Shown piece by piece: positions 9,970 to 14,026 of a stretch of DNA of 64,000 nt. This DNA comes from Alloyangia pacifica (GTDB lineage Bacteria; Pseudomonadota; Alphaproteobacteria; Rhodobacterales; Rhodobacteraceae), in NCBI RefSeq assembly GCF_003111685.1, contig NZ_CP022190.1, positions 310,001-374,000 on the forward strand, read 5' to 3'. Under the pieces are notes generated by a model. The model was not told the origin of the DNA. It ran no database searches and was given only the letters and a program-made list of their open reading frames with translations. The first letter of the stretch is position 1; each line of letters begins with the position of its first letter. Made by a program: the position numbers and the translations under genes.

Positions 9970-11481
9970 CTAGGCGCGCACGGTGATCACTTTTCCGCCG
10001 ACGGGCGACAGGGCGCCGGGCAGGACGCCGCGCTGCGCGAGGCGCTCGTAGACCGCGTCCGCCTCGGCAAAGAGCGCCGGATCGTAGAGGTCCTGCGGCG
10101 CCCGGTCGGGCATGGGGCGGAAATGGGCACTGAAATCGATCTTGCCGGGCGCCACGCCGAGCGCTTCGCAGAGTGCCTCGAGCGTCTTCTGCGGGTCGGC
10201 ACGCATGTCGTCCTGCAGCACGAAGAGGCAGCGGTCCTCGAAGCGTTGCACGTAGCGGAAGGCCTGCAGCCAGTAGTTGATCCAATAGTCCGGCGTCGTG
10301 GTCTCAAAGGCGGCGGGATCGAAGCCGGGAAAGAGCAGCGGCCTGTGGATCCGACCGAACTCGAAATGGCCGATGTCGCGCATGTATCGGCGAATGAACT
10401 CGTCGTCCGCTTGCAGCTTCAGAAAGTTCAGGTGCTGGCGCAGAAGCGAGGCGGCATGGGTCTCTGGCCGGCGCAACGGCACCACGATGCGGCAGCCGGG
10501 GAAAGCCTCGAGCAGATAGGGGATGCGGGCGATATTTGCATTGTTCTTCGAACAGTAGCGGGCCGGGCCCCCTGGGCTGCGGGCGTGGATCACCTTGTGC
10601 ATCTGGCGGGCGATGAAGGCCTCGGCGGCGGGGTCGCGGTCCTCGGCCTGCCAGAGCGCGATGCCTTCGGCGCGGTACTTGCCGGGCCAGAGCGTCTTCC
10701 ACAGCACCTCCTCGAAGGCCTCGGGGCTGTCGAGGTCGATCTCCAGGCCGTCGCCATGGGCGCGCTCGTGCCGCCCCACGTCGCGCCCGCGCCCGCCGGC
10801 GAGCCGGTTCCACAGCGCCGGCGCGGTGACGAAGGGCATGTCGCGATAGGTGTGCGTGGCGATGGCGGGCACCTCGTGCAGCGCGTTGAGCAACGCCGTG
10901 GTGCCGCCCCGCGCCAGCGAGGCGACAAAGATGGGCGGGCCGGCCGGCTCCTGCACCGCGCCGGGCATCAGCCGGTCCTCGAGCCTCGAGGCGCCCTTCA
11001 GCACCGCGGGGCTGGCAAAGGCCAGCATGTGGAAGAAGCGGTCGGCGGTGGAATAGCGGTTGATCTCGGGCAGCGCCTCGGGATCGTGGCGGCGCGGCCC
11101 ACGCAGGCGACGCAGGCTCTCGCCACCGGCGATCGCAGCCACCGAGACCACGAAGAGGTAGTCGAGCCGCAGCATCAGCGAGAGCACTGCCTCGCGTGGC
11201 ACCAGACCCATGAGGTCGGCGGCGAGCACCGGCAGCGCGGCCAGCGCCAGAGACAGGGCGAAGCGCCAGAAGAGGCCGAAGGCCGCGCCGATCAGCGCGA
11301 AACCGGCCCGGCGCACGGCAATCTCCTTGGCGTCGTCGTCGAGCTCATTGTCCATCATGGCGGTGATACCGGTCATCGCGGTGCCGAGTGTGGCGCGGCA
11401 CAGCGGCACGACCTTACTGCGCCAGAGCCCGAGACCGAAACCGGCCACGGCCAGCAGCGAGACGAGGAAGGTGGCGATCAT
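9970..11481 (-). CDS. Membrane-anchored PAPS-type sulfotransferase
   Basis: A 503-residue protein. The first 120 residues hold about three to four hydrophobic segments (about 2-20, 61-90 and 98-119). A cytosolic sulfotransferase domain follows. The 5'-phosphosulfate loop is IFVASLARGGTTALLNA (residues 184-200). The 3'-phosphate site is RIVVPLRRPETHAASLL (331-347). The start overlaps the upstream 74-residue peptide gene by ATGA, and an arylsulfotransferase lies before that. Membrane-embedded sulfotransferases usually modify lipid-linked or membrane acceptors; the acceptor here is unknown. Confidence 0.82.
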   Translation of the reverse strand: MIATFLVSLLAVAGFGLGLWRSKVVPLCRATLGTAMTGITAMMDNELDDDAKEIAVRRAGFALIGAAFGLFWRFALSLALAALPVLAADLMGLVPREAVLSLMLRLDYLFVVSVAAIAGGESLRRLRGPRRHDPEALPEINRYSTADRFFHMLAFASPAVLKGASRLEDRLMPGAVQEPAGPPIFVASLARGGTTALLNALHEVPAIATHTYRDMPFVTAPALWNRLAGGRGRDVGRHERAHGDGLEIDLDSPEAFEEVLWKTLWPGKYRAEGIALWQAEDRDPAAEAFIARQMHKVIHARSPGGPARYCSKNNANIARIPYLLEAFPGCRIVVPLRRPETHAASLLRQHLNFLKLQADDEFIRRYMRDIGHFEFGRIHRPLLFPGFDPAAFETTTPDYWINYWLQAFRYVQRFEDRCLFVLQDDMRADPQKTLEALCEALGVAPGKIDFSAHFRPMPDRAPQDLYDPALFAEADAVYERLAQRGVLPGALSPVGGKVITVRA

Positions 11482-11702
11482 TTGCGCGTGCCACTGCGCG
11501 CGGCGGCCCGGCTTTTCAGCATCCGCTTGAGCGGGTACCAGACCAGCCCGGCGATGAGCAGGAGCACGCCGAGCAGGATGGCGACGGTGACGGCGATGGC
11601 GCCAAGCCCGGCGCCGGGTCCGATATAGGCGGCGGCCGGGTCGGGCAGCCCCATGCCGAAACTCAGAAGCAGGAGCGCCGCAAGGCGTGCAAAAGGCGTC
11701 AT
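11478..11702 (-). CDS. Small two-helix membrane protein with a YIGPGAG motif
   Basis: A 74-residue protein with a signal-like first helix (about 4-22), the motif AYIGPGAGLGAIA after it, a long second helix (about 34-57) and a basic C-terminal tail (KRMLKSRAAARSGTRK). The start at 11702 has AAGGAG ten bases upstream; the longer frame back to 11867 would run into the preceding gene. Its stop overlaps the next sulfotransferase start, so the two are co-translated. No function is known to me. The location suggests an accessory subunit of the sulfation unit. Confidence 0.78.
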   Translation of the reverse strand: MTPFARLAALLLLSFGMGLPDPAAAYIGPGAGLGAIAVTVAILLGVLLLIAGLVWYPLKRMLKSRAAARSGTRK

Positions 11703-11763
11703 CTTTCGGGTTCTCCTTGTCGAAAAGGGGGAAAGGGTTTGCGATCCACGGGCGCGGCTAGGG

Positions 11764-13134
11764 CTAGGGCTGGGGGCATGTCTCCCAAGCCGTTTCAAAA
11801 TAGCCGGGGGGATGGACGTCGGCGTTGGTGATCTCGCCGACATGGGCGTCATCAAAGGCGTTGACATATTCCCAGACCACTTCGCCCTCGGCGCTGGTCT
11901 GGATCACCCGGCCGCCGTCAAACTCGGCGATCACCATGCCACCATCGGGCAGGATCTCGTGCTGGCCGCGGATCGCCGAGAGCATCTTCTGCCCGGGCGC
12001 CTCGCCGAAGAGCAGCTCGATCTCGCCGCTGGCGGGCTCGACGGCGATGATATTGGTGATCTTGGGCGTGTCGAGGTCGAGCACCTCGCCGGGATAATCG
12101 GTCCGGTAGACGTTGTTGTTGAAGATCGAGATGCGCCCGTCGGGGCGGAACTCGGGATCGTGCTGGCGCAGCCAGGGGCCGGTCTGGTGCCACTTCACAT
12201 CCCAGCTGACCGGATCGACAACCATGACGAGGTTGAGATCGCGCATCGAGACCAGCAAGTCCCCGGTCTCGAACTGGGGAAAGGCGGCAGCGTAGGCGGC
12301 GGGCAGCTCGCCGACCTTGTTGGAATGCACCAGCTCGTCGCGGTCGGGGGCGTGGCGGCTGAAGTCCGCCCCATTTGCGGTCAGCAGCGCCTCGAGATGG
12401 GAGTCGCGGAGTATCTTCGGGATCGACACCTCTTGCTCGATCTCACCCGCCTCGCTGATTTTCAGGATCGTGTCCTCCTTGATCTCCAGCCCGCTCGCCG
12501 ATGCGGAGAAGGGAGGCATGCGGTCTGGCGCGTCGGAATCGAGCCAGCGCTGGCGGCCAAGTAGCCAGTAGCCGCCGCCCGACGCGGGAACGATCGAATG
12601 ATGGGTGCGCTCGTTCAGCGTCCAGACCACTGCGCCGCAGGGTGAGAGCTTCACCGTGCCGCAGTACTCGTAGTTGAAGACGACCTCTCCCTTCGGCGTC
12701 ACCAGCGCGCCGTGCTGGTCGACGTTGAGCGTGCTGGCAAGCGCGCAGACCCGGGTTCCGGCGTCGGGAAAATGGGTGAAATAGTCGAGCGTCCACTTGC
12801 GCATCACGCGTCCATCGCGGTGCACCAGCCGGGCCTGGTTCTCGTCGTCGAAGAACCCGGCCATGAAGACCAGCGCGCCGTCGTCGCCGATCTTGTTGAT
12901 GGTCACGCCGTCGCCCATGCCGCGCGACGGCTGAAGATGGTGGCGCCGGGGGTGGCTGGTCAGATCGTTGTGCCCCAGCGTGGTGAGCATGTCATAGGTG
13001 AGTTCGAGTTGTGGGGCGGGGAAGAGATGCTTTCGCGTGGCAACAGAGCCGTACACGAACCCGGCGCCAATAAGGGCGAGCAGCAGGCACACGGAGAATA
13101 TGCGCCGCGCGAAGGTGTCGGAGAATTGCGACAT
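11764..13134 (-). CDS. Arylsulfotransferase-family (ASST) protein, membrane-anchored
   Basis: A 456-residue protein with one N-terminal membrane helix (about residues 11-30) and a large periplasmic beta-propeller-like domain. Blocks such as GDGVTINKIGDDG, VVWTLNERTHHSIVPA (H178-H179) and WLLGRQRW fit the arylsulfotransferase families, which move sulfate between phenolic compounds without PAPS and use a histidine. The assignment to a particular ASST subfamily is by eye. It is the first gene of a minus-strand unit with the YIGPGAG peptide and a PAPS-type sulfotransferase. No dedicated DsbA/DsbB-like partner adjoins it. Confidence 0.83.
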   Translation of the reverse strand: MSQFSDTFARRIFSVCLLLALIGAGFVYGSVATRKHLFPAPQLELTYDMLTTLGHNDLTSHPRRHHLQPSRGMGDGVTINKIGDDGALVFMAGFFDDENQARLVHRDGRVMRKWTLDYFTHFPDAGTRVCALASTLNVDQHGALVTPKGEVVFNYEYCGTVKLSPCGAVVWTLNERTHHSIVPASGGGYWLLGRQRWLDSDAPDRMPPFSASASGLEIKEDTILKISEAGEIEQEVSIPKILRDSHLEALLTANGADFSRHAPDRDELVHSNKVGELPAAYAAAFPQFETGDLLVSMRDLNLVMVVDPVSWDVKWHQTGPWLRQHDPEFRPDGRISIFNNNVYRTDYPGEVLDLDTPKITNIIAVEPASGEIELLFGEAPGQKMLSAIRGQHEILPDGGMVIAEFDGGRVIQTSAEGEVVWEYVNAFDDAHVGEITNADVHPPGYFETAWETCPQP

Positions 13135-13324: not shown

Positions 13325-14026
13325 TCAGACGACTTCGATCACGTCCTTATCGATGGCCAGGTGATAGCCCTTGCGGGCGATGTTGCGCACCAAAAGCTCG
13401 CTGACCATCTGGTTGCCCAGACCGTCGCGGAGGCGCTTGATCCGCGTCGCCCCGGCGGCCTCTTCGCAGTCGCTGGGATCGCGGCCCGAGATCATCCCCT
13501 CGATCTGCGCGCCGGTCAGTGTCTCGTCGTCCATCCGCGCCTCGGCCAGGACCGAGAGTGTCTCGATCATCGCCGCGGTCAGCTTGAAGCCCATGGTGTT
13601 GAGATACACCATGTTCTCCTCGCGGCTGATGATCAGCGAACTGACCTGGATGCCCGAGCGCTCGATCTGTGCCATGCGCCGGTTCATCCCCGCGAGCATC
13701 ACCAGGAAGACCAGCGCGGCCACCAGCATTGCGGCGGCGAAGACCAGCAGCACGAAGATCACCATGCGGTAGCTCGCCAGCGTGTCGGCAAAGGCGGTGC
13801 CCGAAAGCGCGAGGATCTCCAGCAGCTTCACCTCGGCCTGGGCGGTGAGGTCATGCTCGACGAAGATCCGTTCGACCCGCGCGTTGAAGGCGTTGCCATC
13901 GGGCAGGGTGAGCATGAGCAGCCCGCCGGCAAGGACCAGCAGGGCGACGATCGCGGCGATGCCAAGGGTGACGATGCGCCCGCCTGCGCGGCGGGCGTCA
14001 GTAGCGGAGATAGAACTCGCCGGCAT
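13325..14026 (-). CDS. Two-helix membrane protein with OmpR-like winged-helix C-terminus
   Basis: A 233-residue protein with membrane helices at about residues 18-41 and 88-113, and a 46-residue loop between them. The C-terminal part (about 140-225) looks like an OmpR/ToxR-type DNA-binding domain: a FKLTAAMIETLSVL helix, then ATRIKRLRDGLG, and finally RNIARKGYHL, which matches the R-x-GY-x-L wing end. With this order both termini would be cytoplasmic. The start at 14026 overlaps the upstream exported-protein gene by 29 bases and has a GAAGAAG site; an internal GTG could also serve. The regulatory role is inferred. Confidence 0.7.
   Translation of the reverse strand: MPASSISATDARRAGGRIVTLGIAAIVALLVLAGGLLMLTLPDGNAFNARVERIFVEHDLTAQAEVKLLEILALSGTAFADTLASYRMVIFVLLVFAAAMLVAALVFLVMLAGMNRRMAQIERSGIQVSSLIISREENMVYLNTMGFKLTAAMIETLSVLAEARMDDETLTGAQIEGMISGRDPSDCEEAAGATRIKRLRDGLGNQMVSELLVRNIARKGYHLAIDKDVIEVV

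Follow-up and report, generated by a model that had tools for sequence, protein, structure and literature searches.

We analysed a 64,000-nucleotide stretch of the Alloyangia pacifica genome (NCBI RefSeq assembly GCF_003111685.1, contig NZ_CP022190.1, positions 310,001 to 374,000), hereafter the window, in which three minus-strand genes at positions 9970..13134 bring together two sulfotransferase chemistries. They encode a membrane-anchored, presumably periplasmic arylsulfotransferase of the type that is independent of 3'-phosphoadenosine 5'-phosphosulfate (PAPS), here called ASST, a small signal or membrane peptide (PEP) and a membrane-anchored sulfotransferase of the PAPS type (ST). PAPS in the cytosol is out of reach for an enzyme in the periplasm. 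We consider it probable that the three proteins form a two-step, two-sided relay, in which sulfate would pass from PAPS to a membrane aryl-sulfate carrier and from this carrier to the periplasmic ASST. The genes and coordinates of the three-gene unit agree with a preliminary description made from the sequence, and the unit recurs beyond chance.

Co-occurrence of the three genes and the number of arylsulfotransferases

Seven loci with an ASST were found initially, five of them in the order ASST-PEP-ST (three from Alloyangia, one from a Pseudomonadales metagenome-assembled genome and one from Ruegeria). The loci from Heliomarina (L004) and Marimonas (L007) have an ASST without ST. As we had expected beforehand, each of these two genomes has one ST elsewhere, within an ASST-PEP-ST unit that is additional to the first ASST.

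To extend the comparison, 295 genomes of the family were scanned with profiles of the ST (A1, six rows) and the ASST (A2, eight rows) at E values up to 1e-20. The profiles match an identical set of 18 genomes. The chance of this under a random draw is 4e-29, a figure that overstates the functional proof because all six rows of A1 and most rows of A2 come from linked loci and because operon transfer alone can give shared presence. In all 18 genomes PEP precedes ST on the strand they share, either immediately or separated by a membrane gene, and in 15 an ASST lies within the fetched ST region. The ST regions of the remaining three (G010, G280 and G267) lack an ASST, and the ASSTs of these genomes sit either on a different contig or at a distance of more than 60 kb. 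Given that PEP-ST stands apart from the ASSTs in these genomes, linkage alone does not explain the co-occurrence.

The Pfam family PF14269 by itself matches 24 family genomes, with one to six matches in each of the 18 ST genomes. Matches are weaker in the six further genomes (G091, G153, G201, G215, G250 and G271). Five of these regions were fetched (all except that of G201); an ASST-like gene was called in four, and none was called in L123 (G153). By eye, a LacI-type regulator stands beside the ASST-like gene in G250, G215 and G091, and also beside a second copy in the ST genome G125, and the gene of G271 is without such a setting. Because of the weaker matches and the LacI-type neighbours in three cases, we take these extra proteins as another subfamily and did not count them as part of the system.

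Across 398 genomes of the phylum, an ST profile of 23 rows (A5, E up to 1e-25, three candidates scored per genome) matches 18, the window genome included. PF14269 matches occur in 13 of the 17 further genomes, all 13 with an ASST inside the fetched ST region and each with a PEP-like peptide, whereas any PF14269 match occurs in 12 of the 380 ST-less genomes (Fisher p 1.4e-14). The co-occurrence in relatives on which the preliminary description had made its proposal depend thus extends from the family to most ST genomes of the phylum scan. Five of the 12 ST-less genomes were looked at (L128-L131 and L122), and the low-scoring L130 was left out of the tree described below.

Protein database searches returned relatives above threshold for all three proteins (at least 1645 for ST, 357 for PEP and at least 440 for ASST). 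We compared the best 120 matches for each, restricted to contigs of 5 kb or more and counting an identical longest-contig size as shared. Among the 75 ST matches listed, 28 share a contig size with a PEP match, 29 with an ASST match, 44 with either and 13 with both; control comparisons with jittered sizes gave means of 0.10 (PEP) and 0.15 (ASST) shared matches, with 2 at most. The shared contigs include ones from Myxococcota (all three genes), Zhongshania (ST and PEP) and Pseudooceanicola (ST and ASST).

The numbers of the two enzymes differ within genomes. Every one of the 18 family genomes, with at most five candidates scored in each, has one ST match, and the window genome likewise has a single match. 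We built a FastTree phylogeny, rooted on short ASSTs and read without inspection of its support values, from 51 ASSTs of ST genomes (set A6) and 12 others. One clade contains all 51 together with L132 and L133, two additional copies that belong to ST genomes; five clade members come from each of G010 and G280. Outside it are the ASSTs of the ST-less genomes G640, G417 and G562, an extra copy (L134) from the ST genome G591, and six short ASSTs, two of which (L121 and L124) come from ST genomes. Among the tree members, clade ASSTs were found only in ST genomes.

In the window genome, the short ASST-like gene of L121 lies about 3 kb from a type III polyketide synthase gene (L121:6547-7599 and 10852-12021, outside the window). 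According to Pfam, the genes beside this ASST-like gene are of LacI, ABC transporter and NMT1 type, and the synthase and ASST-like genes are probably separate units.

Catalytic and membrane parts of the unit

The ASST gene (11764-13134, minus strand) encodes 456 residues, and its closest relatives are in Alloyangia. The protein matches PF14269 (E 1.9e-29, 103.4 bits, cut-off 27) and PF05935 (E 1.1e-5, 25.1 bits, cut-off 24.2). Its structure model has the propeller fold of AssT, preceded by a single N-terminal helix at residues 2-35; of the 51 ASSTs, 45 carry a strong hydrophobic stretch within residues 1-110.

Residue H325, in the motif RQHDPEF (codon at 12160..12162, minus strand), is the predicted sulfated catalytic histidine and is invariant in 51 of 51 ASSTs. 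It corresponds to profile position 310, and the match to the Escherichia coli AssT structure 3elq begins with position 308 at residue 434, so that H325 is aligned to His436; the H436N chain 4p04 scores 6.5 bits below. According to PMC13426309, the catalytic set of E. coli AssT comprises His436 with the partners His252, His356, Asn358, Arg374 and Thr501. Also invariant in all 51 ASSTs are H179, H270, N272 and R298, and serine or threonine occupies position 386 in 49; these five were paired with the other AssT residues by order and spacing rather than from a printed alignment. H392 was rejected as a catalytic residue, being present in just 21 of 51. The catalytic histidine that the preliminary description required is thus in place and, as judged from sequence, the window ASST is a member of the arylsulfate sulfotransferase family with its predicted catalytic set.

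ST (9970-11481, minus strand) has 503 residues and joins two parts. The sulfotransferase domain at about residues 172-485 (10027..10968, minus strand) matches PF13469 (E 6e-15), and matches to PDB structures cover model residues 173-485, where model numbering is protein numbering minus one since the first codon was omitted. The domain has the sulfotransferase fold with a phosphate-binding loop (SLARGGTT) and a 3'-phosphate segment (PLRRPETHAAS). The R, the G and one T of the loop and the R, P and S of the segment are invariant in 23 diverse ST members. Ahead of this domain lies a membrane region of about residues 1-135 (MEM; 11077..11481, minus strand), with model helices at 2-20, 48-89 and 105-126.

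Twelve of the 18 family genomes (WIN, L057-L066 and L070) carry MEM as part of the ST protein, the arrangement of the window. MEM is split off as a gene of about 125 amino acids between PEP and ST in L067, L068, L069 and L072, which have an SDHWKE-like patch in common. In L071 a short ST directly follows PEP, with an L067-like open reading frame elsewhere in the same region. In L073 the position of MEM is taken by another membrane protein, MEM2, which is common to L110-L115 and L118; its position was seen for L073, L110, L111 and L113. Other proteins, of 234 and 249 amino acids, take this position in L116 and L117. Neighbouring genes that fuse and split in this way are classically taken as a mark of proteins that work together.

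The MEM2 proteins L110:9783-10502 and L113:10348-11061 run from a helix through a charged stretch to a second helix, a possibly periplasmic part and a third helix, a layout that by eye recalls Oxa1-type insertases; they match no Pfam family over cut-off. At the start of a contig of G330 (L105:1-600), a transposase-like stretch directly precedes a shortened MEM and ST, and is likely an insertion or an assembly edge.

PEP (11478-11702, minus strand; 74 amino acids) begins 61 bases beyond ASST and overlaps ST in an ATGA that holds the PEP stop and the ST start (11478-11481, minus strand), as the preliminary description had noted. Two hydrophobic stretches flank the sequence AYIGPGAG. The first is signal-peptide-like, and by eye would be a signal peptide ending A-A-A ahead of the tyrosine; the second ends in WYPLKR and is followed by a basic tail. 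The peptide had been described as having two helices. Both hydrophobic stretches are present, and if the first is a signal peptide one helix would be left. The motif itself (YIGPGAG, 11607..11627, minus strand) has the form YxGPGxG in 32 of 33 aligned PEPs and YMGAGAG in one (L104), a conservation that is partly due to selection, as YxGPGxG also served as the search handle for PEPs and the alignment script required the tyrosine. L109, outside the 33-PEP alignment, has YSGPGVG.

PEP matches no Pfam or NCBIfam family over cut-off and MEM none in Pfam, so that two membrane parts of the unit are without a named family; the NCBIfam search names none of ASST, PEP and ST. A literature search on YIGPGAG-like motifs found no paper in the collection searched. 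At L118:9501-11700 (G676), a PEP-like peptide with AYIGPGAGVS overlaps a gene of the PF01663 type I phosphodiesterase family, beside a divergent ST and without ASST. It may be that peptides of this family also work with other periplasmic enzymes.

A window gene at 13325-14026 (minus strand), which precedes ASST on its strand, contains two hydrophobic segments and weakly resembles a winged-helix domain (PF00486, E 0.074); it is possibly a membrane-bound regulator. Scans for tRNAs, promoters and terminators gave nothing clearly above chance.

A sulfation relay and its alternatives

The proposed relay would begin in the cytoplasm, where the ST domain would transfer sulfate from PAPS onto a phenolic membrane carrier while its own helices (MEM), and perhaps also PEP, keep it at the inner membrane. 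The carrier sulfate would then reach the outer leaflet, perhaps with the help of MEM and PEP. There the anchored ASST would accept the sulfate on H325 and hand it to a periplasmic acceptor. One PEP-ST module could supply all clade ASSTs of a cell, making the carrier sulfate a shared periplasmic currency. The suggestion of the preliminary description that the PAPS-type enzyme makes the donor for the ASST gains support because one ST accompanies several ASSTs; from the same pattern we infer that the ST product is the donor. The membrane carrier, its chemistry and the partnership of the peptide, which were part of that suggestion, continue to be proposals.

More specifically, PEP, MEM and ST may act as a dedicated membrane module that loads PAPS sulfate onto an inner-membrane phenol or onto the PEP tyrosine and presents it outside as a membrane-held, activated sulfate currency, which any number of anchored ASSTs would spend on different acceptors, surface glycans included. 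We hold this fuller version tentatively. It may be likened to polyprenyl-phosphate sugars feeding periplasmic glycosyltransferases.

The acceptor of the ASSTs is probably a surface glycan in part of the cases. Fourteen ASST regions lie away from the ST unit, and the neighbours were scanned in five picked for their glycan-related look. These neighbours are a nucleotidyltransferase, epimerases, a C-methyltransferase, GtrA and a 692-residue protein without a Pfam match (L078); a nucleotidyltransferase and a similar 685-residue protein (L076); GT87 and UbiA (L079); ManC and GT2 (L082); and exosortase, GT4 and MBOAT (L004). As the five were picked by look and no enrichment test was made, they speak weakly for glycans as acceptors. 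The relay does not rest on acceptor identity.

Several observations weigh against the relay. No carrier gene is linked to the unit: in a clustering of open reading frames of 100 amino acids or more from 37 regions, no cluster besides ST, ASST and the membrane proteins exceeds eight regions; one other cluster of eight has a low-complexity representative, and the rest span four regions or fewer. By eye, most of the nine ASST regions left aside above (for example L074, L075, L077, L083 and L084) are without glycan genes. ASST-like proteins also occur in ST-less genomes, outside the ASST clade. Four of the 17 further ST genomes of the phylum scan lack an ASST: in G330 the ST is at a contig edge, in G404 and G639 neither ASST nor PEP was seen, and in G676, where ST stands with a MEM2 relative and an opposite-strand PEP overlapping the PF01663 gene, no ASST was seen. 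The substrate of ST is not apparent from its best structure matches, which are STF9/STF1 and tyrosylprotein sulfotransferases.

The PAPS supply adds to these points. Adenosine 5'-phosphosulfate (APS) kinase, present in the window genome, was found in 14 of 18 ST genomes and in 30 of 30 ST-less genomes, so that as a companion of ST it is not enriched, rather the reverse. TIGR00455, the APS kinase family, has no match over cut-off in G027 and G125 (both 98% complete), G019 (91%) and G146 (83%). All four have a PAPS/APS reductase-type gene, which G027 and G125 combine with a full unit. With no kinase match in these two, PAPS is less certain as the donor there.

It is unlikely, in our estimate, that the two enzymes instead work in parallel, with ST acting on a cytosolic or membrane-bound precursor and ASST independently sulfating a different position or a different molecule in the periplasm with scavenged aryl sulfates, the two co-occurring since both serve sulfated surface products. 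The ASST loci in glycan clusters would fit this, as would the silence of ST sequence and fold about the substrate, and natural substrates of E. coli AssT have been suggested from urine, and thus from an external source, in PMC13426309. Counter to this, a shared supply is the better fit for a single ST accompanied by as many as five clade ASSTs at separate loci, and for PEP-ST standing apart in G010, G280 and G267, which would be less expected of one product; nor does PEP-ST itself belong to a recurrent gene cluster.

Returning to the relay, we consider which carrier could serve it. A type III polyketide synthase was rejected as a general carrier maker: 26 of the 31 genomes with both ST and ASST have no match and five have one. 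The enzyme is not among the recurrent neighbours of the 37 regions, and in the window genome it lies on a contig other than that of the window. Given the lack of a linked carrier gene and the rarity of the synthase, a dedicated carrier pathway appears unlikely, and our guess is a membrane phenol of housekeeping type, for example a quinol. The sulfation of a membrane quinone has a precedent in Stf3 and sulfomenaquinone; we know of no ASST partner of Stf3. Stf3 is a sulfotransferase of the sulfomenaquinone gene cluster of Mycobacterium tuberculosis (PMC7081687).

Alternatively, PEP could itself be the carrier: the conserved tyrosine of YIGPGAG would be sulfated and would either donate to ASST as an aryl sulfate borne on protein or act as a relay residue for this enzyme. 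We regard this as improbable: the tyrosine is by eye periplasmic and ST cytosolic, its conservation stems partly from the search, and a peptide consumed in the reaction would be unusual. Still less probable is a merely co-inherited unit for defence, detoxification or sulfur handling whose genes share no pathway step. The small share of genomes with the set (18 of 295 in the family; ST in 18 of 398 in the phylum) would allow movement by transfer, but the unlinked co-occurrence, the fusion and fission of MEM and ST, the ATGA coupling and the ASST tree argue against it.

Relation to described systems and significance

The preliminary description knew of no system of this form, a view that is not supported. 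As described in PMC4257720 and PMC6731281, caprazamycin biosynthesis in Streptomyces passes sulfate from the PAPS enzyme Cpz8 via a triketide pyrone sulfate to the ASST Cpz4. Cpz4 is the closest solved structure to the window ASST, and Cpz8 is among the lower matches of the window ST; both matches speak for the relay. The two-step logic of PAPS enzyme, aryl sulfate carrier and ASST is thus known, and there as here a PAPS-type enzyme and an ASST are encoded together. In contrast to caprazamycin, the type III polyketide synthase for the carrier has no match in most genomes here, ST is joined to membrane proteins and PEP by fusion or coupling, some genomes have more than one ASST for their ST, and some ASSTs lie in surface-glycan loci. 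A soluble carrier of the caprazamycin kind would be a pyrone or phenol made by a type III polyketide synthase, which ST would sulfate and the cell export to serve as donor. This follows the described mechanism and the window genome has such a synthase, but we regard it as the least probable alternative, given the rarity of the synthase, the membrane helices of ST, and a Cpz8 match that is restricted to the domain behind those helices (residues 177-454).

The other comparisons are more distant. Compared with E. coli AssT (3elq, 3ets), the window ASST is shorter and N-terminally anchored, and the clade ASSTs keep company with ST. Mycobacterial STF9 and STF1 (2z6v, 2zq5) are 13 and 17 percent identical to the window ST, which adds N-terminal membrane helices. 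Our literature search, which covered titles and abstract openings in lists of limited length with subscription journals largely outside, found no description of such a unit in Gram-negative bacteria. As far as this search shows, what is new is the widespread membrane-bound form, its membrane proteins without a named family, and the pairing of a single donor module with one ASST or several.

PMC13426309 notes that for most ASSTs the natural acceptors have yet to be identified and that little is understood of their role. The unit offers a testable donor source for periplasmic ASSTs and a likely answer to where these outer enzymes get their sulfate. If true, the relay explains why anchored ASSTs accompany a PAPS-type enzyme, and the unnamed membrane proteins PEP and MEM gain a likely job. 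Loss of ST or PEP alone would then abolish several sulfations at once.

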